Shown piece after piece: positions 2,220-52,066 of a DNA stretch of 53,432 bases (position 1 is the stretch's first letter; each line of letters begins with the position of its first letter). The notes beneath the pieces are model-generated. The model made no database searches and was not told the DNA's origin. It was given only the letters and a program-made list of their open reading frames with translations. The translations under genes were made by a program, and so were the position numbers. Source of the DNA: Nitrososphaerota archaeon (lineage in GTDB: Archaea > Thermoproteota > Nitrososphaeria > Nitrososphaerales > Gagatemarchaeaceae); the NCBI GenBank assembly GCA_016200045.1, contig JACQFN010000014.1, positions 1 to 53,432 on the forward strand, read 5' to 3'.

Positions 2220-2247
2220 AATCGAATACGACACGCCCCTGAGGTTC

Positions 2248-3299: not shown

Positions 3300-3445
3300 T
3301 GGACAGGCTGGAGAGAATCGACCTCTGCCTCCGTATTCTGAAAGGCGTCTCCGAAGTCGCCATCTCTCAAGGGGAGCTCGAGGCTATCAGAAAAGTTACT
3401 CGAGCATACCTTGACGCCGAGTTGGGCTTGTCCGAAGGTGAGTAG
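3296..3445 (+). CDS. Small helical protein, 49 residues
   Basis: The ORF starts at ATG 3296, overlapping the preceding stop as ATGA, and ends at TAG 3443-3445. The protein begins MMDRLERIDLCLRILKGV and is predicted to be all-helical (amphipathic, Leu/Ile/Glu-rich). The gene is short, but the ATGA coupling and position between two coding genes support it. No family is recognised. Confidence 0.5.
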   Translation: MMDRLERIDLCLRILKGVSEVAISQGELEAIRKVTRAYLDAELGLSEGE

Positions 3446-3468
3446 AGCGTCTGGAACCATCAGCAACC

Positions 3469-4788
3469 GTGGAGGCGTCGAAGTGTCCCAGATGCGCCAA
3501 GGACCTCGTGGAGGTGGGAGACGAAGGGCGATTTTTCGAATGCATTTGTGGGTACAAGTTCGACACCTTCCTCACACGTGAGGCCGCCCCAGCTGAGCCG
3601 GAGCCGGTTTCTTGGAAGGATGTCGACATCGCCCTGAGTTCGACCATCAAACGAGACAGCCCCACAAAGCTAATCGTCTTTGCAGCCATGATTCTCACAC
3701 AGACGGAAGACGACCAGATCAACGTAGGGTTGCAGGCGGAGAGCGCGACTGGGAAGACCTACATCCCCCTCGAGGTGGCGGCTTACTTCCCGCAGGAGGA
3801 GGTCGTCATCATCGCGGGCGCAAGTCCCACGGCGTTCTTTCACGAATACGGGAGCTGGGACGACGAGAGAAGGGTGAACGTCGTGAACCTTGAAGGTAAG
3901 ATCCTCATCTTCCTGGACTTCCCCGACTACAGGCTAGTCGAGAAGCTGAGGCCTCTCCTCTCTCATGACAGGAAGGTACTCACTTTCAAGATAACGGACA
4001 AGAGCGAGAAGCATGGTCTGAGGACGAAGACGGTGGAGCTCGTCGGGTTCCCTACGGTGATATTCTGCTCGACCAAGCTCAACCCTGACGACCAAGAGAA
4101 GACGAGGCTTCTGCTTGTTTCACCGAGCGTCGACATGGTGAAACTTAGCGAGTCACTGAAACTAATCGCGTGGAAGCAGAGCGACAGAGCGGAATTTGAG
4201 GCTAGAATTGAGGCAGACCCAAAGAGGGCTTGGCTGAGAGGCCTGGTCAGAAAGGTCAGGAATTCGGGGGTCACCAAGGTGAAGATAGACGGCGACATTT
4301 ACGAGGAGTTCGTGAAGCACGAGCCGAGCCACAAACCGAGGCACCAGAGGGACCTTCCCCGTGTCGCGTCCCTGATCAAGGTCCACGCCCTTCTGAATTG
4401 CGACCAGAGGGAGAAGGATGAAGATGGGACTCTGATAGCGGTATCCGAAGACCTGGAGGCGGGGTTCGAGCTCTACGGACGGGTTTCCCTGGCCAACGAA
4501 TTAGGGGTCAGCCCGTATGTGATGCGGATCTACGAAGACGTGATTCTCCCACAGCTCTCGGAACTAGGGACCACGAGGAGACAGGTCTACCAGGCTCACT
4601 ACTCCCGATTCGGCCGGACGGCGAACAAGCAATGGTACGAGAAGGAGATTTTCCCGGCTCTCACGACTGCGGGCTTGCTAATCGAGGAGCTCGACCCGAA
4701 TGACAGGCGGAGGAAGCTCCTTTACCCCCCTGACCAAACTATTGTTAATTCGGGCTTCGCCGACTTCTGGAACCACCTTCAGCATTAG
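3469..4788 (+). CDS. Zn-ribbon P-loop ATPase, probably a replication helicase-like protein of a mobile element
   Basis: A 439-residue protein with a GTG start. A Zn-ribbon-like N-terminus (C6, C9, C25, C27) is followed by a P-loop (residues 90-97, AESATGKT; the usual first Gly is Ala), a Walker B-like strand ending in D150 (LIFLDFPD) and a sensor-like strand (VIFCSTK, about 200). The C-terminal 150 residues look like one or two winged helices (LANELGVSPYVMRIYEDV). This layout is typical of plasmid or virus replication ATPases in archaea, but no exact family is recognised. Three small overlapping genes precede it, so 2870-4788 may be a replication/regulation module. Confidence 0.6.
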   Translation: MEASKCPRCAKDLVEVGDEGRFFECICGYKFDTFLTREAAPAEPEPVSWKDVDIALSSTIKRDSPTKLIVFAAMILTQTEDDQINVGLQAESATGKTYIPLEVAAYFPQEEVVIIAGASPTAFFHEYGSWDDERRVNVVNLEGKILIFLDFPDYRLVEKLRPLLSHDRKVLTFKITDKSEKHGLRTKTVELVGFPTVIFCSTKLNPDDQEKTRLLLVSPSVDMVKLSESLKLIAWKQSDRAEFEARIEADPKRAWLRGLVRKVRNSGVTKVKIDGDIYEEFVKHEPSHKPRHQRDLPRVASLIKVHALLNCDQREKDEDGTLIAVSEDLEAGFELYGRVSLANELGVSPYVMRIYEDVILPQLSELGTTRRQVYQAHYSRFGRTANKQWYEKEIFPALTTAGLLIEELDPNDRRRKLLYPPDQTIVNSGFADFWNHLQH

Positions 4789-4845: not shown

Positions 4846-5748
4846 CTACCTAGCAGACTGCTGACTCTTGTTGAATATAGATAGGTCAGCCGACACGCCA
4901 AAAATTACGTCGTTAACGTCTTGTAGGACCTTATCCTTATTCTGCCCTACGAGAAAGTACTCAAGGCAGACTTTGAGTACACTTCTTGCAATAACCTCGG
5001 CGAACACTACTTGACCGACTTCGTCCCCCAACTTCTCGCCGTGGATTGCCTTGCTTCGGATGCCATAGATTCGCCGAAACTGGTCGTATTTCTCCCTGCG
5101 TTTGGTTGGAAGTCTTTCTGTAAGTATTGCAACTGTTTGTGACAGACGATGTATCAGTTCCGTCTGGCTTGTACCAAGTAGAGCCTCAATGGAACCTACA
5201 AAATCGACTATCGCCATGGGCATGTCGTTGCGTTGCATGTCATCAATCCCTCTGTTGAAGAACCTGAACGCAGGATTTCCTAGACTCCGGAATTCTTCAG
5301 AGGAAAGGACTGGGAGGACATTCTTTGCGAACTCGGCGAGAGGGCCGATTTCATCTTGACCCAAGCCATAGACCACACCTCCTTGTGGGCCCAACATGCT
5401 TATGCCGAACTCGTAACTGTATAGGAACTCCCCGAGATTTTCATCCCAAACCTCGGCGACTACAGGGTATGCGGCAATGTAACCTTGTTTGAATAACCTA
5501 AAGCAAGTAATTAGGGAATCAACTTTCTCGTAAACTGCGGGCGGATTAACCAGGTTTCCCTCATTTAGTTCTAACATTGTTGTTGCCACATGTTCAGCTC
5601 GAGTCTTCGTGAAATGTGCCTGTGTGTCCTTCCGCCTTGGCTCAATTGAGAAACCATCGAGTTCAAATTTCGGAAGTAGCTCTCTGTTTTGAGCTTCCCT
5701 AGGATCCCGAATCAGGCCATCAAGGTGAATAGTGAGTCGGATTTTCAC
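4846..5748 (-). CDS. Apea-like HEPN domain protein
   Basis: A 300-residue protein. The C-terminal half (about 175-270) matches Apea-type HEPN domains: a helix AIVDFVGSIEALLG, a second helix, and YGIRSKAIHG, which carries the R(x4)H motif of HEPN ribonucleases (R231, H236). The N-terminal 150 residues are unrecognised alpha/beta. HEPN proteins of this type are found in abortive-infection systems and cut RNA when triggered. It sits convergent to the P-loop gene and next to nuclease-like genes, which fits a defence role. The fold call is fairly firm; the trigger is unknown. Confidence 0.7.
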   Translation of the reverse strand: MKIRLTIHLDGLIRDPREAQNRELLPKFELDGFSIEPRRKDTQAHFTKTRAEHVATTMLELNEGNLVNPPAVYEKVDSLITCFRLFKQGYIAAYPVVAEVWDENLGEFLYSYEFGISMLGPQGGVVYGLGQDEIGPLAEFAKNVLPVLSSEEFRSLGNPAFRFFNRGIDDMQRNDMPMAIVDFVGSIEALLGTSQTELIHRLSQTVAILTERLPTKRREKYDQFRRIYGIRSKAIHGEKLGDEVGQVVFAEVIARSVLKVCLEYFLVGQNKDKVLQDVNDVIFGVSADLSIFNKSQQSAR

Positions 5749-5917
5749 TCGAAGAGTGGCAAGATTGGGTCGTAAAGAGGTTTGCCAGGAGGTGTAATGG
5801 CCGATGCCCGCCTCACGGTGAGACGGGGCGGCTAGTCTGTTGAACTATGACTGAGAGAACCTCAATTCGACATATATGCTTAAGTTTATCAATCATCTCA
5901 TGGGGCAGTGAAGTAAG

Positions 5918-7033: not shown

Positions 7034-7898
7034 GCTCGTCAATATTCTAATAACCCTTGGGCTCCGCACGCCCGACTTCGGTCATCCCCTTGAAGATGTA
7101 GGCTACACACTTGACCGGATTGGTCCGACAGTCGTGCTGCCTGATTCTACTTCGGTTCAACCAGACTTGACCTTCAAGTCTCATGAGAGGAACCGTCTTC
7201 TTGTAGCGGAAGCGAAGAGTGGAGGCGTCGACAACGCCCAAGCCGCTAGTTTCAAGCAACTGACACCCGACATTCTTTCGAGCCAAGGAATAACGACACT
7301 TCCAGCCACTAATCTCTCCTTTGAGACGTGCTATGCATGCTCTTCCACAAATCGAGATGTGGTATTCCAGAATGAGGCACAGAACCATCACGGTTTCCCT
7401 ATCCTTGTTTACGAGGATGAAACGCTGAAGAAAGGGAATGGAAGTTCGGCATTCCAGGACGGATTGCTGGAGAATCTATTCTCTAGAGGAGTAACTTTCT
7501 CCAGACCGCCTTCTTTCAGCAACTATCCCTTTGGCGAGGGCGACGGCAAGGGATGGATTGCCTTTCAAGTCTTAGCAGCGATTTCCGAACTCGAAGCTCT
7601 CGGCAAAGGAACGTTTACCGAGAAGGATCTAATGGTAAAGACCCATCCGTTGCTTGGTTATATGGACCCAAAGGCCCGCCAATACATTCACCGGGTCATC
7701 TCTGATGTCTTGAATACTCTCAACTTAAGGGAAGAAGACGAAAGATTTGTGATCAAGAAATTGCATAATCAAGAATGGCAAGTCGTGAAGTTCAGACGCA
7801 CGAAACAAGTCGCGCAGATGTTAATGCAAATCGCTGACGAATTTGATCAGAAGCCCGATTATGAAGACCTCACTTCGTACAGCCAATCAGGGAGTTGA
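7005..7898 (+). CDS. PD-(D/E)XK-type nuclease-like protein
   Basis: A 297-residue protein. Residues 53-71 read PDLTF...LLVAEAKSG, which fits the PD-(D/E)XK core: P53 D54 on one strand, E69 and K71 on the next. The C-terminal 100 residues look like a winged helix (YIHRVISDVLNTLNLREED). Fusions of this kind act as restriction-like or defence nucleases, but the substrate is unknown. It overlaps the preceding unknown gene by 29 bases and is followed by two further short proteins with nuclease-type motifs. Confidence 0.55.
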   Translation: MMSTLSEHTRLVNILITLGLRTPDFGHPLEDVGYTLDRIGPTVVLPDSTSVQPDLTFKSHERNRLLVAEAKSGGVDNAQAASFKQLTPDILSSQGITTLPATNLSFETCYACSSTNRDVVFQNEAQNHHGFPILVYEDETLKKGNGSSAFQDGLLENLFSRGVTFSRPPSFSNYPFGEGDGKGWIAFQVLAAISELEALGKGTFTEKDLMVKTHPLLGYMDPKARQYIHRVISDVLNTLNLREEDERFVIKKLHNQEWQVVKFRRTKQVAQMLMQIADEFDQKPDYEDLTSYSQSGS

Positions 7899-7928
7899 GT
7901 CGCCTTTGCCTCCTAGGCTGACCCAGAT

Positions 7929-8420
7929 ATGACTGAGCTCGAGATACTTCTTGGATCCGCACTAGCCGTTCTCGTTGTGCTAACCGTTATTGGCTTCTAC
8001 CTTGCCAGTACATACTACCGAAGGTGGCAAGCTAGACAGTCCAAAGCATTCGAGATGGGCGGAAGACAGGTCAGAGGGGACATGTATCAATTGCTGGGGA
8101 CCTTTGCCATGCTAAACGACTACGAACAGATAATGACGTTGTCGACCACTCCTAGGCAAGGGTCACTCGACCTAATCGGCGTTAAGGTGGATGCGGTGGA
8201 TTTTATCGAGTTCAAGAAGAAGGGAGGGGCGCTACAGGGCCCGGAACGGAAAATTCAGAAGTTGATTGAGCAGAAGAAAGTCAATTATGTTATCAAAGAC
8301 GTGGACCTGCCAGAGGGATTCGCAATTACTGACAGGGATGAAGCAAGATTCGACCCCACGAAATTTGAGCCAGTTCCATTTGACCCCAAGGACAAGACCC
8401 AGGAGAAGGCAGAGAAATAG
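7929..8420 (+). CDS. Membrane-anchored Holliday-junction-resolvase-related endonuclease
   Basis: A 163-residue protein. One N-terminal membrane helix (about residues 5-27) leads to a basic stretch and a domain like the archaeal Holliday-junction-resolvase-related family: GGRQVRGDMYQLLGTF, then SLDLIGVKVDAVDFIEFKKKG, giving D81, E94 and K96 as the likely metal-binding/catalytic set. Members with an N-terminal helix are known, but their role is not clear. The next start (8428) is 8 bases downstream. Confidence is good for the fold and low for a junction-cleaving role. Confidence 0.65.
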   Translation: MTELEILLGSALAVLVVLTVIGFYLASTYYRRWQARQSKAFEMGGRQVRGDMYQLLGTFAMLNDYEQIMTLSTTPRQGSLDLIGVKVDAVDFIEFKKKGGALQGPERKIQKLIEQKKVNYVIKDVDLPEGFAITDRDEARFDPTKFEPVPFDPKDKTQEKAEK

Positions 8421-8427
8421 GAAATTC

Positions 8428-8862
8428 ATGCTGTACGAAGACGATGTCAAGCACGCCGTCGCCAAGTTCCTAAGAGAGAACCACTGCCGTAAGGTTCGGA
8501 CGATAGGTCTTCATGAACATGGCCTCGACCTTAGTGCAGAATTCCCTGACGGCCGGGCCTTATGGGTTGAAGCAAAGGGCGAGACCAGTTCAACCCAAGG
8601 ATCTCCCTACTACGGTAATCCTTTCAATTCTAGCCAACGCTCAGACCACTTTGGCAAAGCGTTGCTGAAATGCTTACAGTTCGTTTCCGAAGGGAAGGGG
8701 AGAGTGGTGGCTGGTCTTGCCCTTCCTTCAGAGGGCAACACAAGCCTTGTTGACTCAGTAAAACCAGTATTGCGAAGGCTTCGCATCGCTGTGTTTCTGG
8801 TAAATCACGACCTCCAAGTGGTCACTCCTTTAGGAATACCATGGGAGAAGGGTAAACCCTAG
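8428..8862 (+). CDS. Small PD-(D/E)XK-like protein
   Basis: A 144-residue protein with its ATG 8 bases after the previous stop. The core GLDLSAEFPDGRALWVEAKG gives D34, E48 and K50, a compact nuclease-type motif, followed by a helix and a strand as in restriction-endonuclease-like folds. A frame open further upstream (to 8266) lies inside the previous gene, so I chose the ATG at 8428. It overlaps the convergent gene at 8859 by 4 bases. The function is inferred only from the motif. Confidence 0.55.
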   Translation: MLYEDDVKHAVAKFLRENHCRKVRTIGLHEHGLDLSAEFPDGRALWVEAKGETSSTQGSPYYGNPFNSSQRSDHFGKALLKCLQFVSEGKGRVVAGLALPSEGNTSLVDSVKPVLRRLRIAVFLVNHDLQVVTPLGIPWEKGKP

Positions 8863-9515
8863 CCTCGCCCTAATTGTCGCAACTTCGAACTAAGCCTCTC
8901 AAAGTCAGTTTCGTATTTGTGAACCTTCGCTGTCGTGAAACTGCCCCTGTTGAAAGTAGCATAGTGCCAAACGTATTCGACTGCGCATGATGGTGGGAGC
9001 TCGAGCAAATGCTCATGAAGTACACGTAGGAAATACGACCTCGGTCTGTCCATTCCCATTACGGCAATCATCCTCGGTTTCACGATGTTGATTTCCGTCT
9101 GTAGGACAGGAGCAAAAGCGCGAACTATCTCGAATCGCTCTTCCTCTGTCTTGGAATTCCACCGTGAGGGTTGCTCAGCCATTTTGACAAAGTTGGTAAT
9201 ATAACAATGCCACCCGCCCCGTTCATCTGGTCGTCCGTCTTTGAATCCGGCTTTGGCCAGGGCGCTTCTGAACACCTTATCTCCGCGGCTAACCCACCAC
9301 TGCAGCTCAGGATCTTGTAGGGCTTCGTTCTTGGAGACTTTCCTGAGCCCCTGAAGACTCGGGTTCTCTGCCAGGAAAATCAGCCCTGAAGTCATATCTC
9401 CCAAGTATCCTGGACACCAAGGATACTTCTTCCTGTGGTCGAACAATTGGGGGTTCGTAGCGAACACCTTGTCGACTTCGGCCCGTACTTTCGCTTCGTT
9501 CGAAGACACGAACAA
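8859..9515 (-). CDS. Uracil-DNA glycosylase superfamily-like protein
   Basis: A 218-residue protein. The N-terminal part has YLGDMTSGLIFLAENPS, like motif 1 of the UDG superfamily (a GD...LVGEAPG-type strand and loop). The middle has CYITNFVKMAEQ, and a helix-strand VLQTEINIVKPRMIAVMG resembles the strand before motif 2. The C-terminal part has WHYATFNRG, where the family carries an H-P-S/T/A-type motif. The motifs are loose, so catalytic activity is uncertain. It could be a base-excision enzyme or a defence protein with the same fold. Confidence 0.5.
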   Translation of the reverse strand: MFVSSNEAKVRAEVDKVFATNPQLFDHRKKYPWCPGYLGDMTSGLIFLAENPSLQGLRKVSKNEALQDPELQWWVSRGDKVFRSALAKAGFKDGRPDERGGWHCYITNFVKMAEQPSRWNSKTEEERFEIVRAFAPVLQTEINIVKPRMIAVMGMDRPRSYFLRVLHEHLLELPPSCAVEYVWHYATFNRGSFTTAKVHKYETDFERLSSKLRQLGRG

Positions 9516-9662: not shown

Positions 9663-10655
9663 CTAGCGAGCTAGTTCTGGATTTCCTCTTTGAATTGGGC
9701 TCGCCTCGGCATTCCCTTTTGCTGCCTGCCCCCCAAGTTGGCGCCCCAAGTCCTCCAATCGGTCGAAACGCTCGTGGAGGAGTTCTATTCTGGCCTTGCT
9801 AACCCCGGGAATCTTCCCTACCTTCTCGACAAGACTTCTTACGATGGAGGGATTGGGAAGGATGAGGCTGTAGAATCCTCCCTCTTCCCATGCTCCTTCA
9901 TAGAATGTGTGGTCACTGACAACCTCTTGGATTCTGTGCATTGCTTCTCCCCTCCGCTGAGGGGTCTGGAAGCTAACCATCAAGTTGGCAGGGACCGCTT
10001 CCAACGCGCCGAACCTGAGACTCAGCTGTGAGAATACAGCACCGGCATCCAGCAACCTTGACAACCTCCGCTTGAAAGAACGAACTGACACGCCGGCTTC
10101 CTTGGCAAAATCTCGGTAGGTTCTCGATTCGTCATTAGCAAGGGTGGCGATTATCCTTCGGTCTGACTGTGACAGGACGACCGAGCAGGGTGGGAATAGT
10201 ATCCTGGTGAAATCTCCTGACTCTGCTCCAGCTGCCGCGTTAAGCAGAGCGAGCTTTTCTTGCCGGGACCGCTCAGTTGCATAGACGAAGACGATCCCAA
10301 CATAGTTGCTGAGATAGTCCGCCACAACCACCACGTCCTCTATACGTTTGAGCCTGTCGACCACTTCCCTCTTTGATGCTGAAGACGATGCATCAATCCC
10401 ATAACCTGCCATGGTGAGACCAAGCAGGTTCGGGTTCGGGAAGACCTTGTACCCCTTCAGGAAGCCAGAGGCGCTCATCGCTCCTAGTCGGTTCCTTACA
10501 GTCCCCTCAGAAATGCCGAGCCTTTTCCCGACGGCTCTATAGGAAAACTTTGCTCCGGGCCTCGAAGGGTAGAAAGGCTCACCTTGGGCAAGTTCCTTCA
10601 GAATCCGGATGTCGAGCCTGTCCAAGTGAGCAGGATCGATGCGCAAGAGTGCCAT
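9663..10655 (-). CDS. Lrp/AsnC-like regulator with two helix-turn-helix domains
   Basis: A 330-residue protein counted from the ATG at 10655; the frame runs further upstream, but without homologous sequence. It has two helix-turn-helix units: residues about 9-65 (LDRLDIRILKEL, YRAVGKRLGISEGTVRNRLGAM) and about 160-215 (LSQSDRRIIATL, YRDFAKEAGVSVRSFKRRLSRL). Each is followed by an alpha/beta stretch like an Lrp effector domain. Tandem Lrp-type proteins of this layout are found in archaea as global or local regulators. It is divergent from 10698, with 42 bases between the starts, and may control that gene. Confidence 0.65.
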   Translation of the reverse strand: MALLRIDPAHLDRLDIRILKELAQGEPFYPSRPGAKFSYRAVGKRLGISEGTVRNRLGAMSASGFLKGYKVFPNPNLLGLTMAGYGIDASSSASKREVVDRLKRIEDVVVVADYLSNYVGIVFVYATERSRQEKLALLNAAAGAESGDFTRILFPPCSVVLSQSDRRIIATLANDESRTYRDFAKEAGVSVRSFKRRLSRLLDAGAVFSQLSLRFGALEAVPANLMVSFQTPQRRGEAMHRIQEVVSDHTFYEGAWEEGGFYSLILPNPSIVRSLVEKVGKIPGVSKARIELLHERFDRLEDLGRQLGGQAAKGNAEASPIQRGNPELAR

Positions 10656-42775: not shown

Positions 42776-44683
42776 TCAGGGAGGGATGCCGACTTTCAGG
42801 CAGAAGTCTCTGAACCGGGGGTCCTTGCGAAGACCTTCGAAGACCTGGAGGCTCTTGATCAGGAAAGGCCATGAATGGGCTTCCGCCTGCTTGCCCAGCG
42901 CTCTGAAGGCTTCATCGTAGTTCCCGAGGGCAGAGTTGATGAAGAGTCCCCCGAACAGCTGAACCGAATCGCTCGCGCTCCTCTTGAGCACGCCGAGTTC
43001 CCGCTCCGCGGCTTCCCTCCTTCCCGTGAACGCGTAGAGCAGCCCCTGGTCCATGATTGCAAGAGGCTCATCTGGATTTATTTTGAACACCGCGTCTATG
43101 AACTCCTGCGCCTTTGCGAAATCGCCCTTCAGCATGTACGCCTCTGCCAGGCCAGCGAGGATTCTGGGGTGCCTCGGGTTGTACTCCAGCGCGCGTTGAA
43201 GGACTTTTATCGATTCGTCGAACCTGCCCATAACCCTGAGGATCAGGGCGAGGAAGTTCGAGGCGCCGAACGAGAGCGGGTCGAGGTCGTAGGCCTTCTG
43301 GAAGGTCGCCAGGGCCTTGTCCAGGTTCCCGGCGCCGCCGTACTGGATTCCAAGGAATACGTACGCGTCCTCGAGGTTCGGGTTAATCCTGATGGCCTTC
43401 TCTGCCTCGGCCGTGGCTTCCGCATATCTGTCGATGGAACTGTGAATCCCGGCCATCGCCGCGTGCGACTCTGCACGGTCGGGTCCTAGCTCAAGTGCCT
43501 TGCGCGCCGCAGGCTCTCCCTTCGTGAAGACCACCTCAAACGGCTCGTACCCGCCGGCCGCGATTTTCATCCAACCCTGCGCCATGGCGCTGTAGGCCCG
43601 CGAGAACGAGGGGTCCCTCGCGACCGCGCTCTCCAGCAGCGGGATTGCCTCCCGGAGGCTGGGCTCGGTGGATTGGTGGATCAGCTGCTTCGCCCTCATG
43701 TAGAGCGTGTACGCCTCGATGTCGTCGGTGTCCTTTTCCGGGCCCTTGGCGAAGACCCCGGTGGAAATGGACCCAGCCACCTTCGACGCCACGTCGCTCT
43801 GGATGGCGAAGATGTCGTCCAGCTCCTTGTCGTAGTTCGAGGCCCAGAGGTGCTCCTCGGTCCTGGCGTCTATCAGCTGGACGGTAACCCTGATCTTGTT
43901 CCCGGCCTTCCTGACGCTACCATCTATGATGGAGCCGACCGCCAGCTCCCTCCCGATGTCGGAGATCTTCTTCTCCTTCTTCTTGTAGTTCATCACGGAC
44001 GTCCTCGCGATGACCTTCAGCTGCCCTACCTCGGAGAGCTTGCTGATGAGCTCCTCGGTGAGGCCGTCGGCGAAGTACTCGTCGTTCGGGTCGGGGCTGA
44101 TGTTCACGAACGGCAGGACGGCCAGCCTTTCGCGCGGCGCCTCGTTCTGAGCGGAGAATGTTCCAGGCAATTCGACCCTGTACACCCCTAGAGGGAGTTC
44201 GACGTTCTTTAGCTCTATCTCGCCAACCTTGGTTATGGTGAGGTCGGTCTTGTTCCTCACGTGGTCGTACACCTGCTGGGAGATGCGGATCCCGCCCGGC
44301 TCGGCCAAGGGCTCTATCCTGGACGAGACGTTCACGGCGTCGCCGTAGATGTCCCCCGAGCCGTGCACCACGTCCCCGAGATGCACACCCACGCGGAGCT
44401 CGACCTTCCTTGAGGATTGGACGCTCAGATTCCTGTCGCGGAGCTTCTCCTGGACCTCGACCGCACAGAGGACCGCGTCCAACGCGCTCCTGAACTCGAT
44501 GAGGAAGGCGTCTCCGATGGTCTTTACCTCCTTCCCTCCGTGCGATGAGAAAACCGGCCGTATCAGGGACCTGTGCTCCTCCAGAAGCTGGAGCGCGAGC
44601 GCCTCATTGGCCTGCGCGAGCCGGGTATAGCCGGCTATGTCTGTGAACATAATTGCTGCAAGGCGGCGATGACTCTCAGCCAA
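42776..44683 (-). CDS. Class III nucleotidyl cyclase with TPR repeats
   Basis: A 635-residue protein. The cyclase domain (1-180) has LAAIMFTDIAGYTRLAQ with metal-binding D15, VKTIGDAFLIEF with D58, and RVGVHLGDVVHGSGDIYGDAVNVSSRIE. Residues about 190-315 form a TolB-N-like domain (RLAVLPFVNISPDPNDEYFADGLTEELISKLS, IDGSVRKAGNKIRVTVQLIDART). Residues about 325-625 are TPR repeats. This layout is common in bacteria, rare in archaea. A TATA box (44708-44717) gives a nearly leaderless mRNA. The first 13 codons lie beside the left end of the integrated element and appear to have been supplied by it. Confidence 0.85.
   Translation of the reverse strand: MAESHRRLAAIMFTDIAGYTRLAQANEALALQLLEEHRSLIRPVFSSHGGKEVKTIGDAFLIEFRSALDAVLCAVEVQEKLRDRNLSVQSSRKVELRVGVHLGDVVHGSGDIYGDAVNVSSRIEPLAEPGGIRISQQVYDHVRNKTDLTITKVGEIELKNVELPLGVYRVELPGTFSAQNEAPRERLAVLPFVNISPDPNDEYFADGLTEELISKLSEVGQLKVIARTSVMNYKKKEKKISDIGRELAVGSIIDGSVRKAGNKIRVTVQLIDARTEEHLWASNYDKELDDIFAIQSDVASKVAGSISTGVFAKGPEKDTDDIEAYTLYMRAKQLIHQSTEPSLREAIPLLESAVARDPSFSRAYSAMAQGWMKIAAGGYEPFEVVFTKGEPAARKALELGPDRAESHAAMAGIHSSIDRYAEATAEAEKAIRINPNLEDAYVFLGIQYGGAGNLDKALATFQKAYDLDPLSFGASNFLALILRVMGRFDESIKVLQRALEYNPRHPRILAGLAEAYMLKGDFAKAQEFIDAVFKINPDEPLAIMDQGLLYAFTGRREAAERELGVLKRSASDSVQLFGGLFINSALGNYDEAFRALGKQAEAHSWPFLIKSLQVFEGLRKDPRFRDFCLKVGIPP
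44645..44664 (+). repeat. Left attachment-like repeat of the integrated element
   Basis: GAACATAATTGCTGCAAGGC lies in the cyclase codons for LAAIMF. It matches 51993-52012 (GAACATGATCGCGGCAAGGC) at 17 of 20 positions in the same orientation. All three differences are silent third-codon positions. The integrase gene starts 5 bases inside it. Confidence 0.7.
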
Positions 44684-45797
44684 TCAACCGAGGAAGGTTC
44701 TCCGACCCCATATAAACAGACGAGACGAAGAGGAGGGGGAAACCGCTTCAAAGAAGAAACCAGACTTCACGGAATCATCCTTGAGGATCCCTCCATCAAG
44801 CGATACCTGGCGGTCGTCGCCAACCGAAGACGAAACAACGGATTCGTTTCACCATCAACAATGCTCAAGACACTTTCCAGCACCAAACACTTTCTCCGAT
44901 TCCTCGACCTCCCAATAACTGACCACGCACTTTCAGACCTAATTACAAAAACCCGAGAGCAGCACAGAAGGGAGAACTACATGACCGACGACCGACTCCT
45001 CGAATTCGTCGGACAGAGACCGATAACATCTCATGCTTCTTGGGGAGCATCCATCAAAGGAATCTTCAAGGCCAACAGATGCCCTCTTCAAGCGTCATTC
45101 AATACCACTTTCACTCATTCCACGAAGAAAATCGGCCCCGGAATGCTGAAGGCCATCTACGAGACCGTCACGGTCGAAGAACAGAAGCTGATGGATTTGC
45201 AGGCCTATGCAGGAGAGATTAGCGGCCGTTTCGCTGACAGCGATTTCGCAATGGGAAGACTTCGGCAATAGATACATCCTCATCCACATCAAGGCCCTAG
45301 ACACCAAGGCAAGAAACGAACATGTGTGCATCATTCCCAAAGCCTTGGCAGACTGGCTGAGAGATTACTGTAAACAAACGAAGAGGGACAGGCCGTTCCC
45401 CAACTGCAGAACCCTTTGGCATGAGATAACTCGGCTAGTTCTCGCGAAATTCGGAATCCAGATATCGTCACATTACCTACGAAAGCGATTCCACACAATC
45501 GCCGGAAAAACAGCTATGCCTGTCAACTCGTGGGATTACCTGATGGGTGACAAGCAGTCTCATGGACACAACGCAAGCACATACACGTTAGAAGACTTCT
45601 CGGACCTTGTGCAAGAATACGACAGGTATCTTATGCCCTTCCTCTCAATATCAGACCCAAGAGAACCCGACGAACCAACGAAACCGTTCACGACCACATC
45701 CGAACTTGATCAAGTTGGCAAGGAAAACGCGGAACTGAAGGAGCAGATTCTCAAACTGACAAGGATACTAACAGAGGCCCTCGCAAAGCAAAACTAG
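44669..45797 (+). pseudogene. Tyrosine recombinase/integrase with a frameshift
   Basis: Two frames overlap at 45207-45271. The first (from ATG 44669) holds the N-terminal arm/core-binding region (SPSTMLKTLSSTKHFLRFLDLP) and runs to LMDLQAYAGE. The second carries RLAAVSLTAI, the catalytic box HYLRKRFHTIAG (HxxR), GHNASTYT with the likely nucleophile Tyr, and a C-terminal coiled coil. Catalytic Arg I (in AGERLAAV) lies exactly at the junction, around 45211-45218 in a GAGAGA run. Two bases lost, or a +1 slip, would explain it. The element may therefore be immobile, or the frame may be shifted by the ribosome. Confidence 0.8.
44708..44717. promoter_or_regulatory. TATA box of the cyclase gene, inside the element
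   Basis: CCATATAAAC, read on the minus strand as GTTTATATGG, is centred about 29 bases before the cyclase start at 44683. It lies inside the element, so the cyclase now uses an element-borne promoter. It could also serve plus-strand transcription. Confidence 0.5.
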
Positions 45798-46035
45798 GCC
45801 ACTAATTTACTCCTTCTCCAAGGTTCTGACTATGACCAGAGTGCATCCCGGCTCCATGAAACGGGCAGTTCCGAGATTTCAATGGTACATAATAGAGTTC
45901 ATGGCGGCGGCCTCAGCAGCTCCTTTGTTGATACCGAGACAAATGACTAATATTGGAGGCGCCATGGAATATATTATGGTCAAATGGATTCTCTACTCGG
46001 GGAAGAGTTTATCTGCCTCCAGTGCTGTCACTCTC

Positions 46036-46464
46036 ATGATGACTGAACGGGAGTACAAGGTAAGGTTGCGATTGGGTGATGCAGAGATGGAAATAGTGGG
46101 AGATCAGGAATTCGTTTCAAAAATGTCCAAGGAATTCGAATTTGTCCTAAAAGAGACACCCAGGGCTCCAATCGAGCCCTCTCACACCTCTCGCGCAGTC
46201 CCCTCATCAGCGAAGAAGCCAACGTCTGCTATTCCCGCAGGGCAAGTACCAGCAACTGTCCCCGGCAAGCTGGAGGCGCTAAAAGACGAAGGGTATTACT
46301 CCGAACCGAAGGAACCTTCGGCTATTACGGAGGAATTCCGAAACAGGGGTTGGGGAGTCTACAAGACCAAGGACATCAGCTCTACCATCAAAAGAATCGC
46401 TGGCAGAATCGGTCTACGGAGAGTTCCACTAGGAGAAGGAAAGTACGGATACACATTCCCCTAG
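46036..46464 (+). CDS. Hypothetical protein of the integrated element
   Basis: 142 residues from ATG 46036 (or 46039). The frame is open to 45832, but an AATATATTA TATA-like site at about 45968 favours the later start. The N-terminal 45 residues (YKVRLRLGDAEMEIVGDQEFVSKMSKEFEFVL) look like a small beta-alpha unit, then a Pro/Ser-rich linker, then a C-terminal winged-helix-like part (GKLEALKDEGYYSEPKEPSAITEEFRNRGWGVYKTKDISSTIKRI). The gap 45798-46035 holds only this promoter. Confidence 0.5.
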   Translation: MMTEREYKVRLRLGDAEMEIVGDQEFVSKMSKEFEFVLKETPRAPIEPSHTSRAVPSSAKKPTSAIPAGQVPATVPGKLEALKDEGYYSEPKEPSAITEEFRNRGWGVYKTKDISSTIKRIAGRIGLRRVPLGEGKYGYTFP

Positions 46465-46480
46465 TAGGAGCATCTAGTCC

Positions 46481-46906
46481 TTGCCTGTCGACGCGAATAC
46501 CGAAGAGAAAATCAATGAAATTCTTGAGATTCTAAAAAGACTGGAAGCCAGAATAGCTACCCAAGAAACCAGGAGCATTGCACCAGCTGCGGTCAAGCAG
46601 AAACCATATTCAATAAAGGAATTTGTGATTGCAAGAAACCCAAACAACGATACCAAAAAGACACTTGCGATTGGTTACTTCCTCGAAAAATACGAGAATC
46701 TTCCCTCATTCAACATAAGGGACTTGGAAACTGGTTTCAGGAACGCTAAGGAAAAGGTGCCTTTGAACATGAACGACAAAGTCAACGGAAATATTCGTAA
46801 CGGCCACGTAATGGAAGCCGAGGAACTAAAGGATGGACTAACCGCTTGGACTCTGACCAGCACCGGGGAGAGATTTGTCGAGAACAACTTTGAGACATCG
46901 AAGTAG
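46481..46906 (+). CDS. Coiled coil plus winged-helix protein of the element
   Basis: 141 residues from a TTG start, 16 bases after the previous stop. A short coiled coil (about 6-30: EEKINEILEILKRLEARIATQ) precedes a domain I know from other archaeal mobile-element and defence-linked proteins, with KKTLAIGYFLEKYENLPSFNIRDLETGFRNAKEKVPLNMNDKVNGNIRNGHVMEA and a final WTLTSTGERFV. The domain looks like a winged helix. It is probably co-transcribed with 46036 and 46935. Confidence 0.55.
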   Translation: MPVDANTEEKINEILEILKRLEARIATQETRSIAPAAVKQKPYSIKEFVIARNPNNDTKKTLAIGYFLEKYENLPSFNIRDLETGFRNAKEKVPLNMNDKVNGNIRNGHVMEAEELKDGLTAWTLTSTGERFVENNFETSK

Positions 46907-46934
46907 TACCTCTCAGCTTGCGATAGCGTCCTAG

Positions 46935-47909
46935 TTGCCAAGCATAGAAATCGAGCTTATTGGTAAGGAAAGAGAACACTACAATACACTCGAAGAGCTT
47001 TACTCCTTTAGCAACGGAAGCAAGGTTGACTCTTACTCTCTGGCTGCAAAGCTTCGAACGACGGTGGATGATTGGGACAGGCTTCAAGGAGGAACAGGCC
47101 AACTCACCTTACTAGCTGCTTACTCCCTTGAATCAATCAGTAAAAGCGATCTTGAGGGTGCAAGGGCATCTTACCTTCTACTTAGTCCCCTTTTCCTCTT
47201 CATCAGAGCGTTAAACAAAATGTCGCGAAAGGACTGGAGAGAAACCGTAACAGCGTGCGGAATCCTGTGCGAACGGCTTGTAAGGAACCTGTTCTTCGAA
47301 CTAGACAGAACTTCGGGAACCAAGGTGTGGGAAACGATCAAAGACGCAAAATTCGAAGATCGAAACGGTCGGCTGCTTAAGGAACTCCAAGAAAGGGGGT
47401 TTCAAGCAGCTGGCTTTCATGGATCGCTTGGTAGAATTTACTTCGTCAGGAATCGCCAGGGACCTCATGACGTTCCACCTCCAGAGCCTATACAGGCCAA
47501 AATCAGTGTCAACGAATGCCTGCCTGTCTATGTTGACTACCTTGCGGCACTAACGCACTTGGGCATCAATTTTCCCAATCTTGAAGGGTTCATCGAGGTC
47601 TTCAGCAACACGACTCAAGTTCGACCTGCTTTGGTTTTCGGCGAAGAAACAACTGGGCCTATTCCCATTAGAGAATTTATCACCAACGTTTTGTTTAGGG
47701 AGGGGTTCTTCAGAGACGGTAAGACCTCAGGAGAAGTGATTTCCAAACTTAACATCCTCCGCAGAAACTACGACGATGCGACCGTAAAGAACGCACTCCG
47801 AAACCTGAGCACACGCAGAGACGCAATCCTTTCTAGGAAAGAAAAAGGGAAGGTATTCATCTACTTTGAACGCTTGCCACCAGACGAGTATTTCAAGCAG
47901 CTAGATTAA
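46935..47909 (+). CDS. HEPN-like protein with C-terminal winged helix
   Basis: A 324-residue protein. Helices around residues 90-125 (CGILCERLVRNLFFELD) and FVRNRQGPHDVPP around 175 give an R(x5)H pair as in HEPN ribonucleases or their relatives. The C-terminal 70 residues (GEVISKLNILRRNYDDATVKNALRNLSTRRDAI) form a winged helix. This layout occurs in abortive-infection-type proteins. As cargo of the element it could protect the element or the host against viruses. The motif is weaker than in the protein at 4846. Confidence 0.45.
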   Translation: MPSIEIELIGKEREHYNTLEELYSFSNGSKVDSYSLAAKLRTTVDDWDRLQGGTGQLTLLAAYSLESISKSDLEGARASYLLLSPLFLFIRALNKMSRKDWRETVTACGILCERLVRNLFFELDRTSGTKVWETIKDAKFEDRNGRLLKELQERGFQAAGFHGSLGRIYFVRNRQGPHDVPPPEPIQAKISVNECLPVYVDYLAALTHLGINFPNLEGFIEVFSNTTQVRPALVFGEETTGPIPIREFITNVLFREGFFRDGKTSGEVISKLNILRRNYDDATVKNALRNLSTRRDAILSRKEKGKVFIYFERLPPDEYFKQLD

Positions 47910-47911
47910 TT

Positions 47912-48046
47912 CTACCAGACATGCACAAGACCATCCTCTTCCTCAGAGAACTTGCCTTTCGTGCGAGTAGTCGCGCGTGGCTTCGCCCCGCGCTCCGTGC
48001 AGCGAGACAAACCCTCGTTTCTCGGCTTTTCTCGTCCTCTTTTCAT
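47912..48046 (-). CDS. Small basic protein coupled to Rep
   Basis: 44 residues. Its ATG overlaps the stop of the rep gene (ATGA at 48043-48046), which implies translational coupling. It begins MKRGREKPRNEG, is rich in Arg and Lys and ends with an acidic patch and HVW. It stops 2 bases from the convergent HEPN-like gene. It is too short for most gene callers. A DNA-binding or copy-control role is possible but not shown. Confidence 0.5.
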   Translation of the reverse strand: MKRGREKPRNEGLSRCTERGAKPRATTRTKGKFSEEEDGLVHVW

Positions 48047-49236
48047 CGCCGATACTTCAGGACTAGACGTCGCTTGAACGCCCTCGTCGAGGGACGAATC
48101 ACGATGAGCGAACCCTTCTCAGCAGCATCTTCGATGGGAGCCACCGTCCGCATATCGATACCCAAAGGTTCCAAGTCGTCAGGACAGCGCGACCTGCGAA
48201 CCTCACGCTCAAATCTAGCACGAGTAGGGAGTTCTAGACCGAGAAACCTCAACCAAGGAGAAGCCATAGTCCAGTGGTAAGATGAATACAGCCCATAGCC
48301 AGAGTAACGCTTGAAGTTCCTCGTCATCAGCAATGAGCGGAGGTAGGACTTTCGCTCAGTATGAAGACCTGACGGAAGAATCTCCTTTTCGGCAAGAACA
48401 TTGTGGATATCCCAGATAGGCGCGCGCCCTGAATACCAGTTCCTGTGCTCCGTCCTCGACTCGTTGGGGCTGTACTTGATATTGAAATCAACGTCCGAAG
48501 CCGAATGAGGACCATACATGCCCCTCAAGGCTTGGTCCCAAGTCGAGCGTAACGTCTTGAACTGATAGTCGCCGACGCCTTCATAGCGCGACTCAATCCA
48601 CATTTCAGAGTCAGGTTTGTCAACTGTATACAGGCGTCTGGTCTGTTTGTCCCAACCGAATCCCGAAACGAAAGCATGCGTGTGGAAATGATAGGCGCTG
48701 CCAAATCTCTTGGCCTCTGCACCTATGCCTAGCGGGTCGGAAGAACGCCAGTTCTGGCCGTAAACATACACTGGCAACAGCAAGCCAGAGAACTGAGGCT
48801 TTTGCTTGACAAGATATTCACGAAAGAAGTCGAAGCTCAAGCGCTTCCAAAAACCCATTCCCTTACGGGCGATGCGGTACTGGAACGATCCGCTAGGAGC
48901 AGTCCCTTCAAACTGCCAAAATGGGCCGGCGTAATCCTTTCCCGTCTTTCGTCTGATGGCGTGGATTACCTCGTAAATCTTGAAGACAGTCCAATCGGTA
49001 TTGCTCCCAGTCCTTCGGTCAGAACATCGCCAGCATGCCCAACTCCCACACGACAAGGGCTGCTTGTAGACCTTGCCACACCTCGGACAAGACCTGTCTA
49101 CTGTCTCCATCCTGCAAGTCTGAATATCGTGGGCCGCTTTCCTGTCAAACCTAGAAATCAGCTCGACCTCGGCTGGAGAGGGTGGCTTAACAGGAGTAAC
49201 TGTTCGAACTAGAGATGGATTCCACTTTTCTCGCAT
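48043..49236 (-). CDS. HUH-type replication initiator (Rep) protein
   Basis: 397 residues from ATG 49236; the frame upstream of this overlaps the divergent gene at 49313 and is not protein-like. A Zn-binding part (SCPRCGKVY, CGSWACWRCSDRR) precedes FHTHAFVSGFGW in a HxHxH setting, the metal-binding HUH motif of rolling-circle Rep proteins. Downstream helices (RSTWDQALRGMYG, WYSGRAPIWDIHNVL) may hold the nicking Tyr. Rep proteins of this type are known from archaeal plasmids. It implies that the element can or could replicate as a circle. Confidence 0.7.
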   Translation of the reverse strand: MREKWNPSLVRTVTPVKPPSPAEVELISRFDRKAAHDIQTCRMETVDRSCPRCGKVYKQPLSCGSWACWRCSDRRTGSNTDWTVFKIYEVIHAIRRKTGKDYAGPFWQFEGTAPSGSFQYRIARKGMGFWKRLSFDFFREYLVKQKPQFSGLLLPVYVYGQNWRSSDPLGIGAEAKRFGSAYHFHTHAFVSGFGWDKQTRRLYTVDKPDSEMWIESRYEGVGDYQFKTLRSTWDQALRGMYGPHSASDVDFNIKYSPNESRTEHRNWYSGRAPIWDIHNVLAEKEILPSGLHTERKSYLRSLLMTRNFKRYSGYGLYSSYHWTMASPWLRFLGLELPTRARFEREVRRSRCPDDLEPLGIDMRTVAPIEDAAEKGSLIVIRPSTRAFKRRLVLKYRR

Positions 49237-49280
49237 TACAAGGAAATCCTGTAACGGCACCTGAGGAAACGAAGGTGTTG

Positions 49281-49290
49281 AATTAATATC
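49281..49290. promoter_or_regulatory. Divergent promoter between rep and 49313
   Basis: AATTAATATC is a TATA-like site about 28 bases before the ATG at 49313. On the minus strand it lies about 45 bases before the rep start. It may drive both genes and be a site for the winged-helix proteins. Confidence 0.4.
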
Positions 49291-49312
49291 ACGAGACGGG
49301 GAAGTTCCCCCT

Positions 49313-49714
49313 ATGCCAAGAAGACGAGCAATCTCAAATGAGACAAGAGCCAGAGTCTTGCTCGAACTCAACAAGAGCAGTAATGGCCTTGTTTTGACTA
49401 AACTCACCCAGAAACTCGGATGGAAAAGGACCGATGCAAAGCGCGTGCTCGACGACCTTGAATTCTCAGGAATGACGTTTGTTGACGACATGTCTCATTG
49501 GGCATTCGCCCGCCAAAAAGGGAGAGGGCTAGTAGACCATAGCTATCTCTTCGAAATCTCGCCGAAGGGCTTGACATTCCTCAAGCATTGGGAAGCCATC
49601 AATAAGCTGAGGTCCACCGAAGGCAGCTACTCGAAATACGGTCTTGTCATCGAGGGGCCATTGAAGAGATACTATGAAGAACCGAAACTCGATTTCAATG
49701 AATACAAGGAGTAG
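49313..49714 (+). CDS. Winged-helix protein, first of a related pair
   Basis: A 133-residue protein. RAISNETRARVLLELNKSSNGLVLTKLTQKLGWKRTDAKRVLDDLEFSGM is a winged helix, followed by a wing and FEISPKGLTFLKHWEAINKL. It is clearly related to the next gene (shared positions in LTKLTQKLGW/LTRLNQRLGW, SGM, S-x-x-G-x-x-FLKHWE). It is divergent from rep, with a leaderless start. It is probably a regulator of rep or of itself. Confidence 0.6.
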   Translation: MPRRRAISNETRARVLLELNKSSNGLVLTKLTQKLGWKRTDAKRVLDDLEFSGMTFVDDMSHWAFARQKGRGLVDHSYLFEISPKGLTFLKHWEAINKLRSTEGSYSKYGLVIEGPLKRYYEEPKLDFNEYKE

Positions 49715-49717
49715 GGG

Positions 49718-50107
49718 ATGCCAAAGAGGCCCACAATCTCACATGAAGCGAGAGTAACAGTCATACTGGCTCTGAGAGCCTACCAGCATGAGCACCCTGA
49801 TGGCTGCACACTGACGAGGCTCAACCAACGGCTAGGCTGGCGAACCAAAGAGACCACGAAAACAATCAACGACCTCGTCCAATCAGGAATGGTTTACGGT
49901 GACTATCTCACGCCTTGGGTTCTCACCCATCCAAACCCCAAACACAGGCTCTTCAAGAGTGGAGGTTACCTCTTGAAAGTTTCACCTTGGGGAGACGAGT
50001 TTCTGAAACATTGGGAGGAACTCAACAAGCTCGGCACAGCGAGAGACCACCACTACTCAGAGTTAGAATATGACCTAGAACAGGAGGAAAAACGAAGTGC
50101 CTCTTGA
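49718..50107 (+). CDS. Winged-helix protein, second of a related pair
   Basis: A 129-residue protein that starts 3 bases after 49313-49714 ends. TISHEARVTVILALRAYQ, LTRLNQRLGWRTKETTKTINDLVQSGM and VSPWGDEFLKHWEELNKL follow the first copy through most of its length. The pair arose by tandem duplication and may form heterodimers. The C-terminal tail is acidic then basic. Confidence 0.6.
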   Translation: MPKRPTISHEARVTVILALRAYQHEHPDGCTLTRLNQRLGWRTKETTKTINDLVQSGMVYGDYLTPWVLTHPNPKHRLFKSGGYLLKVSPWGDEFLKHWEELNKLGTARDHHYSELEYDLEQEEKRSAS

Positions 50108-50246
50108 CCTGGCGCCAACCACAGAAACGCGCTACCAAAGGCTCCACAGTTCTAAAGCGGTTCGCCCGAATAGATGAACTCGATTCCACAAAGGGATACC
50201 ATGTAAATATCATTATTTGTCACGCTCTAAACGAGTGAACCTACCG

Positions 50247-50705
50247 ATGGAACAATGGTCTCCCTGTCAATGGAAACCTTCAGGAATTCGTCTCCGTAGT
50301 CCGAAGAAGTGCATGGCGGAGCGACTTGTCTTCGTCTCCATCATTGTCATTTTGGGGCTATCGTATTTTGACTTCTGGTTGTTGGTATTGATTGTCCCCG
50401 CCCTGCTTTGGTATCCAATCACCCAGATTGTACTCATCCGCTACGGGAAACGTTTCGCCAATGAATACTTCCTTAGGGATTGGAAGGGAATGCCACAGAT
50501 AGGCGAATACTCGATTACCCGTGGGCATCTCTTCCTTCGGGTTCCGAATATTACCGAGGCTTATGTGAAACCGACCTCTGTCTCGAGAATCGGAGACTCG
50601 ACCTTCACCGTTCGAGGTAAGTGGCTGAAAAGGTTTCAAATCAACTTCGGGAACAAAGCGGACGGTGATATCTTCTTCAAACAGGTAACGTCGTTAATTC
50701 AGTAG
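50247..50705 (+). CDS. Small membrane protein with PH-like C-terminal part
   Basis: 152 residues from ATG 50247; 50217 (with TTG) and ATG 50313 are alternatives. A TATA-like GTAAATATCATTA (about 50204-50216) supports the middle start. Two adjacent hydrophobic helices (LVFVSIIVILGLSYFDFWLLVLIVPALLWYPI) precede a soluble beta-rich part (GEYSITRGHLFLRVPNITEAYVKPTSVSRI, FTVRGKWLKRFQINFGNKAD), which resembles bacterial PH-like domains. It resembles the gene at 51384 in layout. Confidence 0.55.
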   Translation: MEQWSPCQWKPSGIRLRSPKKCMAERLVFVSIIVILGLSYFDFWLLVLIVPALLWYPITQIVLIRYGKRFANEYFLRDWKGMPQIGEYSITRGHLFLRVPNITEAYVKPTSVSRIGDSTFTVRGKWLKRFQINFGNKADGDIFFKQVTSLIQ

Positions 50706-50784
50706 CCTTCCTTTAGCGGACTACGGGCATAAGCGTTCGCCACACGAGAAGACACGAAATAATTTCAAGGCATACCAAAGACCA

Positions 50785-50962
50785 ATGCCACGAAAATAGC
50801 AAGACATTAACCGACTTACCGCAAGGCAGGGTCTTCTACTGTGTCACTTGCGATTCTTTCATTAAAGGAGTGGCATCTGCAATGGAAATCAGAAGGTATT
50901 GGGAGAACCACATAGAGGACGGACTCCCATCTAAGAACAGGACCGAGAAAGCCTTGGAGTAA
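50785..50962 (+). pseudogene. Small zinc-finger-like protein gene with a one-base frameshift
   Basis: ATG at 50785 reads MPRK and meets a TAG at 50797. One further A in the run at 50793-50796 would continue as NSKTLTDLPQGRVFYCVTCDSF...MEIRRYWENHIEDGLPSKN and end at the TAA at 50960-50962, about 59 residues with a CxxC motif. The TATA-like AAATAATTT (about 50757-50765) sits the right distance before the ATG. The protein part of the second frame is convincing, but the start of the frame is only restored by adding a base. It could be a sequence error in the A run. Confidence 0.4.
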
Positions 50963-50994
50963 GTGAGAATCTCGAACGCAATGAAGAATGATCG

Positions 50995-51291
50995 TCAAAT
51001 TTGACCTAATAACCTTAGGCCGAATACAACAAACTCAATCAGCAAGAGAAAGAGGAGCCAATATTCAAGAGATTCAACGACATTCTTCCCGCTGTACCCA
51101 TGGGAAGTAAGTATCTTCCACTTGGAAACCGTTGACGAAAGCCTATAGCGCCTAAAGAGACCAAAGGTCATGAGACTGGCGGCCAGGGAGACAAGCAAGG
51201 TTCCTATTGCACCCTCCAGAAACCGCTGGAATTGGAACGAAAGGAGCCAGACAACCGCGAGTGTAGCGAGATATCCACGCGCCCAACCCAT
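50995..51291 (-). CDS. Small membrane protein of the element
   Basis: A 98-residue protein with three hydrophobic helices (YLATLAVVWLLSFQF; GAIGTLLVSLAASLMTFGLF; LEYWLLFLLLIEFVVFGLRLLG). No family is recognised. It is divergent from 51384 with 92 bases between the starts and lies convergent to the broken zinc-finger gene. Confidence 0.5.
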   Translation of the reverse strand: MGWARGYLATLAVVWLLSFQFQRFLEGAIGTLLVSLAASLMTFGLFRRYRLSSTVSKWKILTSHGYSGKNVVESLEYWLLFLLLIEFVVFGLRLLGQI

Positions 51292-51383
51292 GCTTCACCC
51301 GCTCGCAACAAGCGCGTTAACCATTACGGCAACTATCTCGCCCTCTAGTAATACAAAAATCACCCTAGTCAACTGCCACATCC

Positions 51384-51860
51384 GTGCAGAAGACTCTCCC
51401 GGGACGACCATTTCACGTCTATTCCTTGATGCGCGGACTGTATGTCTCCATCGCCATCGGCATCCTAGGTCTCATCGGAGCAATCTACTTGGCACTCAAC
51501 CAGTACGGCGCCTCAGCTATTCTAACAACTCCGGGTTTACTCTTCTTGGCCATGATCTATGGAATCTATGACTACTGGCGAAGGCCAATCAGGAAAGCCG
51601 CACTTTACAACGACCATCTCGAAATCTCGGGGCGCGAAGGTGGTTTTCGAATCCCTTACTCCGAAGTTGAAAATCTCAGGGAAGTCAAGAATCTCACTGG
51701 CAGGAGCAAGCAGTCAGTCACATTCTCAATCAAAGGAAAATCTTTCGAGTTCAGGATTCCGTATAGGAAAAACAATCGGAAGCCGGACTTGTTTCCATGG
51801 ATTCAGGAGAGAATTACTTCCTCTACTCACCAAAACACTCAATCAGCCAACGTGTCATAG
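51384..51860 (+). CDS. Small membrane protein with PH-like part, related to 50247
   Basis: 158 residues from a GTG start; ATG 51429 is an alternative. Two helices (LYVSIAIGILGLIGAIYLAL, ILTTPGLLFLAMIYGIYDYW) are followed by a beta-rich part (ALYNDHLEISGREGGFRIPYSEVENLREVKN, VTFSIKGKSFEFRIPY), like the second half of a PH-type domain. Together with 50247 and 50995 it forms a set of small membrane genes at the right end of the element. Confidence 0.55.
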   Translation: MQKTLPGRPFHVYSLMRGLYVSIAIGILGLIGAIYLALNQYGASAILTTPGLLFLAMIYGIYDYWRRPIRKAALYNDHLEISGREGGFRIPYSEVENLREVKNLTGRSKQSVTFSIKGKSFEFRIPYRKNNRKPDLFPWIQERITSSTHQNTQSANVS

Positions 51861-51974
51861 GGCCTGACAATCCTTTCCCGCAGTACCGAATCAATATGAC
51901 GAAATGCTTCCAAGCTGCCTAAGAGCGTTCCCCGCATGAAACGACGTGAACTCGCCTCTACCGTAAAGACTGTA

Positions 51975-52031
51975 TTACAATACATTAATTATGAACATGA
52001 TCGCGGCAAGGCTCCTCTCGCTCACTGACAT
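51975..52031 (-). pseudogene. 5' remnant of a nucleotidyl cyclase gene
   Basis: On the minus strand ATG 52031 reads MSVSERSLAAIMF, then IINVL and stops at 51975. The first 13 codons align with MAESHRRLAAIMF of the intact cyclase (44683); the expected TDIAGYT is missing. The break is at the edge of the repeat 51993-52012. Its own TATA box (52051-52066) is still in place. This is best read as the original start of the cyclase, cut off by the element. Confidence 0.7.
51993..52012 (+). repeat. Right attachment-like repeat of the integrated element
   Basis: GAACATGATCGCGGCAAGGC, direct repeat of 44645-44664 (17 of 20). It covers the codons LAAIMF of the cyclase remnant on the minus strand. Confidence 0.7.
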
Positions 52032-52050: not shown

Positions 52051-52066
52051 GAATTAGATAAAGTAG
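52051..52066 (-). promoter_or_regulatory. Promoter of the cyclase remnant
   Basis: Read on the minus strand, CTACTTTATCTAATTC is a TATA-type site centred about 28 bases before ATG 52031, giving a leaderless start. It probably was the original cyclase promoter before insertion. Confidence 0.5.

Follow-up and report, generated by a model that had tools for sequence, protein, structure and literature searches.

Why do the first codons of a class III nucleotidyl cyclase gene occur twice, once at either edge of a block of DNA with low GC content? To address this question, we analyzed the 53,432-nucleotide stretch (the window) that constitutes contig C21 in the 1.54-Mb genome of a Nitrososphaerota archaeon. 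The block is an integrated element of 7.35 kb (about 44651 to 51998) that lies within the 5′ end of a minus-strand gene encoding a class III cyclase with tetratricopeptide repeats (TPRs). Its GC content is 49%, compared with about 62% in the flanks, and the steps in composition (0.62 to 0.49 to 0.62) fall at the element edges. In our interpretation, which we hold with high confidence, a probably plasmid-like archaeal element was inserted at the cyclase start by a tyrosine recombinase and replaced the 5′ end of the gene.

A cyclase reading frame is cut and restored at a 7-bp core

The element edges are marked by a pair of direct repeats that serve as attachment (att) sites, one of which adjoins an integrase gene (Table 1). 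The copies are identical at 18 of 21 positions, and the three differences between them are synonymous (GCA/GCC, GCA/GCG, and ATT/ATC). The original prediction, based on the letters of the window, had reported this pair as 44645-44664 and 51993-52012 with 17 of 20 positions matching and silent differences; the pair is real and can be given in the slightly longer form used here. When both strands of the 53-kb window were searched with the left copy, the sole other match of at least 17/21 was the right copy, and none of 60 simulated 9.4-kb sequences reached an 18/21 repeat. Comparison of attL and attR, both in the window and in a second insertion described below (L051), identified TGAACAT as the unbroken stretch common to both sides of the cut, and this core is shared by attL, attR, attP, and attB in both cases. 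It is antisense to the cyclase, on whose strand it reads ATGTTCA, the codons for M-F-T. The attP sequence is ATTATGAACATAA in both elements, and the window attP contains the dyad AATTAT-GAAC-ATAATT.

Joining the two flanks at TGAACAT yields a single frame, MSVSERSLAAIMFTDIAGYT... (MSVSERSLAAIMFTDIAGYTRLAQANEALAL...), which agrees with the proposal that an insertion rebuilt the start of the cyclase; the rebuilt gene begins with TTG. As in insertions of the SXT/prfC and dusA type, the site lies at the 5′ end of a protein-coding gene whose frame is restored. On the right, the copy retains its ATG (52031), as proposed, and continues as MSVSERSLAAIMF up to the point where cyclase sequence ends. Two details of the prediction held only in part. 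The two starts, of 13 codons each, can be aligned in register but have just 9 of 13 residues in common; and the cyclase is cut near codon 13, but not cleanly after it, because the cut falls inside codons 12 to 14 (ATGTTCA). The frame of the window cyclase is intact across 635 amino acids and matches its relatives over the full length.

Related genomes carry the uninterrupted gene

Cyclase-TPR paralogues are numerous in the genus, and 11 matches are present in the genome of the window. In a tree of 33 cyclases, the window cyclase formed a clade with sequences from G002, G005, G010, G015, and G026 (support, 100/100). All five orthologues are uninterrupted, as expected if the gene was whole before the element arrived, and their starts, such as MSVGERSLAAIMFTD (G002) and MSGERRLAAIMFTD, resemble the stranded right-hand copy of the window.

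A related element has entered a different cyclase

The original prediction called for other inserted forms, and one was found in another species. L051 (contig G007:C83; metagenome-assembled genome [MAG] record JASHUK010000148.1) shows the same layout within 2.6 kb: a minus-strand cyclase with a TTG start reads MAERSRRLAAVMFTDIVGYT, a plus-strand integrase adjoins it, and a stranded native cyclase start, MSHGERRLAAVMF, lies at the far end. Its empty-site join likewise restores one frame. The L051 cyclase belongs to a different clade from the window cyclase and has different neighbors, and it therefore represents a separate insertion event. Homology between the two elements spans the left ~700 bp and takes in the replacement codons. 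When 400 genomes of the order were searched, the exact attL sequence was found only in G000, the window genome, and in G007; near matches, with three mismatches, included ordinary cyclase starts. As read from these sequences, the insertion, its cut site, the restored frame, its independent repetition in another cyclase, and the assignment to a recombinase family are firm.

To define the range of possible targets, we searched four genomes with the pattern VTNATGTTCACNGAC, which occurred 6 times in G000, 9 times in G007, 8 times in G005, and 10 times in G010; the reversed control pattern had no match in the same genomes. Cyclase starts accounted for 31 of the 33 sites, and the other two were in G010.

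The element supplies cyclase codons and a promoter-like sequence

The element had been predicted to bring its own promoter and first codons. The codons are present, as is a TATA-like box that would suit a promoter. Each of the two elements contributes a TTG start followed by 12 codons, together with a TATA-like box 33 to 38 nucleotides (nt) upstream, which in L051 is CTTATAT at −38. Upstream of the stranded native starts, the sequence TTTATC is found at −31 (window) and −33 (L051). Boxes at such distances are compatible with archaeal promoters whose transcripts are leaderless or have short leaders. The cyclase thus appears to swap one promoter for another. In both cyclase-targeting elements, the supplied box overlaps antisense Y-K codons of the integrase, and the TAT codon concerned is missing in L048 and L049, whose related integrases have other targets; this overlap is suggestive only.

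At attR, the element box TTAATTAT points on the plus strand to the GNAT acetyltransferase gene at 52088, part of a neighboring GNAT/bactofilin pair, and insertion may affect this gene too. Among the genus stretches compared, no GNAT homologue adjoined a divergent cyclase; in G005, a GNAT gene is located 3′ of the cyclase.

The integrase is a tyrosine recombinase that is probably split by insertion

The integrase aligns with the catalytic motifs of tyrosine recombinases, R, HxxR, H, and Y (GER, SHYLRKRF, GH, and Y). It resembles known families only weakly (phrog_216, E value of 7e-5; Pfam Phage_integrase [PF00589] only below the cutoff), and no match to the SSV-type domain Phage_integr_3 (PF16795) was obtained in Pfam scans. 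For L049, an intact relative, structure prediction (mean predicted local distance difference test [pLDDT] score, 77) gave a model that had XerA, lambda Int, and Cre as its best solved structures and was also similar to the SSV1 catalytic domain; by this model, the family has the tyrosine-recombinase fold. Named relatives of the host in which this integrase family occurs are entered as MAGs of Nitrososphaerota, Nitrososphaerales, or Thaumarchaeota. The break in the window integrase, at 45207-45215, is within a short GA repeat and may reflect either a genuine mutation or an error of assembly.

When attP is rejoined, the integrase frame of the window is open across it, reading MKRRELASTVKTVLQYINYEH before the junction and NCCKAAMTLSQ... 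after it. In L049, it is likewise open (MTDGERPTDPQ...TAYTYYER, then KRGVEPRTG...), and the residues Y..YE(H/R) match between the two. These frames argue that insertion probably splits the integrase, as in the "suicidal" SSV type, although the right end may be an arm-site region of the integrase instead of int(N). If the integrase frame does cross attP, the replacement codons and candidate promoter lie antisense inside the integrase gene.

Beyond the two cyclase-targeting elements, a putative core, TGAACG, could be placed at the ends of L049 only by analogy, and no convincing att repeats were found for the integrase relatives L047, L048, L115, and L116. No tRNA targets were found near integrase relatives. 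Two related integrases begin directly at the 3′ ends of host genes, encoding a TGS-domain protein (L047:1-300) and an aminotransferase (L116:4180-4510), which suggests that other members of the family use the 3′ ends of protein genes. Repeats were also seen in two related elements. Close to the right edge of one of them, L049:9296-10394 (G020:C7; likewise L050 of G011) has four diverged right-end-like copies (TATTA..GAA..CCGTCCCAGTCA), as though one site had received several elements in succession. In L048 (G016:C1), C-terminal integrase codons at 5741-5761 and a sequence near the right edge at 9942-9962 form a 20/21 repeat, which may be left over from a second element in tandem.

A model for insertion and its alternatives

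In the mechanism we propose, a tyrosine recombinase would join TGAACAT in the element attP to TGAACAT in the I-M-F-T-D codons at class III cyclase starts. The cut would leave the host promoter and the first host codons stranded at the right end of the element, and the element's replacement stretch, antisense within the integrase gene, would give the cyclase a new start and a promoter-like box. As the integrase gene appears to cross attP, insertion would separate its start and first 21 codons from the catalytic part; the integrase would thereby be silenced and the event would be nearly irreversible. On a broader view, this lineage of elements has specialized on the codon motif of the cyclase family, carries a promoter and start in the antisense of its integrase, and breaks that integrase on insertion, so that the new promoter is fixed and second-messenger genes are rewired in one direction; on this broader view, we are evenly divided.

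Several observations weigh against our interpretation. An empty site with identical neighboring genes was not found among the genus stretches around cyclases, because gene order around these genes is loose in the genus. Both cyclase-targeting integrases have broken frames (one break in the window and several in L051), and their present activity is therefore doubtful. The chance level of an open frame across attP is 6 to 12% per case, the L051 integrase frame is broken or degenerate there, and ATG 44669 offers an alternative integrase start. Only two insertions are known, and the original claim that the promoter changes on each insertion rests on these two; that the new promoter works and that cyclase expression changes is what we infer from sequence. 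The missing empty site would also fit two independent cyclase starts, the left one complete and the right one unrelated and short or decayed, with a chance AT-rich island between them, and cyclase paralogues are indeed many in the genus and sometimes adjacent. This explanation is hardly credible, given that the right piece ceases to be cyclase exactly at the core, that joining restores the frame, that L051 has the same structure, and that the integrase and the steps in GC content are found at the repeats. Alternatively, an element that had captured a piece of cyclase could have entered by homologous recombination with the integrase as a bystander, which would suit both the cyclase-like start that it supplies and the broken state of both integrases. 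However, the shared sequence (18/21, with 7 bp common at the cut) is too short for ordinary homologous recombination. The attP dyad, the location of the site at the integrase 5′ end in both elements, and the similar putative core at the ends of L049 point the same way, and we regard this route as very unlikely.

The remaining alternatives accept the insertion and differ in its consequences. The integrase may be unsplit and start at ATG 44669, with integration merely removing its TATA box: TTAATTAT lies at −32 of this ATG in the circular form, and no such box is upstream once the element is integrated. The left end of the L049 int(C), however, lacks a start codon ahead of the conserved region, L048 has none inside the element, and the open frames across attP with their matching residues favor a split gene; an unsplit integrase is thus conceivable but unlikely. 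The insertion may also be neutral and without regulatory meaning, if the promoter-like sequence that it brings is inactive (and the cyclase silent) or gives the same level of expression. TATA-like matches are weak evidence, and the expression change is deduced from sequence; yet the long cyclase frame is undamaged, the start and TATA-like box are kept in two diverged elements, and in the bacterial IMEVchUSA3/dusA parallel the replacement promoter is active, at a lower level (PMC8409611). We therefore give neutrality only a limited chance. Insertion by a tyrosine recombinase with replacement of the cyclase 5′ end is the reading that we retain.

Other contents of the element

The rest of the element probably identifies it as a cryptic, plasmid-like integrated element (Table 1). 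In its probable HUH replication protein (Rep), C126, C135, C153, C156, H270, H272, and Y353 are invariant in five relatives (HxH plus Y). The Rep start is uncertain, as conservation is lacking over the first ~100 residues, and a fold search with Rep gave no significant match. Matches of the Rep profile to eL43 were due to the zinc ribbon and were rejected. Small membrane proteins are also encoded. Among the open reading frames (ORFs) scanned, none matched the capsid or packaging genes that a provirus would be expected to carry. No DNA match was obtained in a plasmid collection, and IMG/VR contained no relative of Rep or of the integrase and no attL pattern. A related element, L047 (G004:C24), apparently encodes a large DNA methylase/restriction-type protein and a TIR-like nucleotide-binding protein (1750-4692 and 7882-8997), possible defense cargo to judge by their sequences.

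Table 1. Features of the interrupted cyclase gene and of the integrated element (window coordinates)
Feature	Coordinates	Strand	Remarks
Rebuilt complete class III nucleotidyl cyclase with TPRs	42776..44683	-	TTG start, MAESHRRLAAIMFTDIAGYT; Pfam Guanylate_cyc 4e-25 plus TPRs
attL	44644..44664		TGAACATAATTGCTGCAAGGC; core TGAACAT 44644-44650; 18/21 vs 51992-52012; identical core in L051 at 924-930
Element-supplied first cyclase codons	44651..44683	-	TTG, MAESHRRLAAI; homologous to same stretch of L051
int(C)	44651..45797	+	N-terminal frame to 45271, catalytic frame 45207-45797; broken near 45207-45215
Element-supplied TATA-like box TTTATA	44711..44716	-	33 nt upstream of TTG start
ORF	45832..46464	+	No family match
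ORF	46481..46906	+	No family match
ORF, 324 amino acids	46935..47909	+	Weak Penicillinase_R-like C-terminal match, E value of 0.05, below cutoff
Probable HUH replication protein, zinc-binding N-terminal part	48043..49491	-	Zn_Tnp_IS91 5e-5, just below cutoff
Small winged-helix-like protein	49313..49714	+	Weak helix-turn-helix match; overlaps uncertain Rep 5′ end
Small winged-helix-like protein	49718..50107	+	60% identity to L051 2090-2338
Small membrane protein near right end	51384..51860	+	
Putative int(N)	51936..51998	+	ATG plus 20 codons (MKRRELASTVKTVLQYINYEH), in frame with int(C) on rejoining; codon-aligned L051 homologue VRRHALAS
attR	51992..52012		TGAACATGATCGCGGCAAGGC; core TGAACAT 51992-51998; repeat and flank join
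Stranded native first cyclase codons	51999..52031	-	MSVSERSLAAI, ATG at 52031; resembles MSVGERSLAAIMF of G002
TATA-like box TTTATC of native cyclase promoter	52057..52062	-	31 nt upstream of ATG

Comparison with known systems

Replacement of a gene's 5′ end by an inserting element is already known in bacteria. In the SXT/R391 integrative and conjugative elements (prfC) and the dusA islands (IMEVchUSA3), as here, insertion by a tyrosine recombinase takes place at the 5′ end of a conserved protein-coding gene. Those systems are bacterial, have a single target gene, and use an unsplit integrase, whereas the 7-kb window element is archaeal, addresses a codon motif common to a paralogue family, and appears to carry its replacement stretch antisense in the integrase gene. 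The small thaumarchaeal elements of Krupovic et al. (2019), from the same phylum, resemble it in having an integrase, a replication protein, and short att sites; among them, NitEve-E2 swaps a stop codon at a gene 3′ end and NitEve-E3 has a split SSV1-like integrase (PMC6563490). Of the 68 such elements with defined sites, 39 are in tRNA genes, 15 are intergenic, and all 14 in protein genes are in 3′-distal regions (PMC6563490), in contrast to the 5′-end location, new start, and promoter-like box of the window element. The "suicidal" integrases of SSV and pTN3 share the location of attP within an integrase gene that is split on insertion (PMC8371274), but they target tRNA genes through att sites of 40 to 50 bp and contain Phage_integr_3, whereas the window element has a protein-gene target, a 7-bp core, and no Pfam match to that domain. 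For pTN3-like integrases, the target is the 5′ half of a tRNA gene, and the integrase promoter then drives expression of that gene (PMC8371274).

We found no report of 5′-end replacement of an archaeal protein gene in the open-access literature. The case described here brings into archaea a strategy known from bacteria, "replace the 5′ end." In contrast to prfC or dusA, the motif that serves as target is repeated in a large paralogous family of signaling enzymes, and the same kind of element could therefore re-promote different cyclases in different lineages. Its attP apparently has three roles on two strands, as recombination core, integrase codons, and cyclase codons. Whether protein-gene targets possess the dyad symmetry that recombinases require is a question raised in a review of the archaeal enzymes (PMC8371274), and the clear dyad in the window attP makes this question directly testable.

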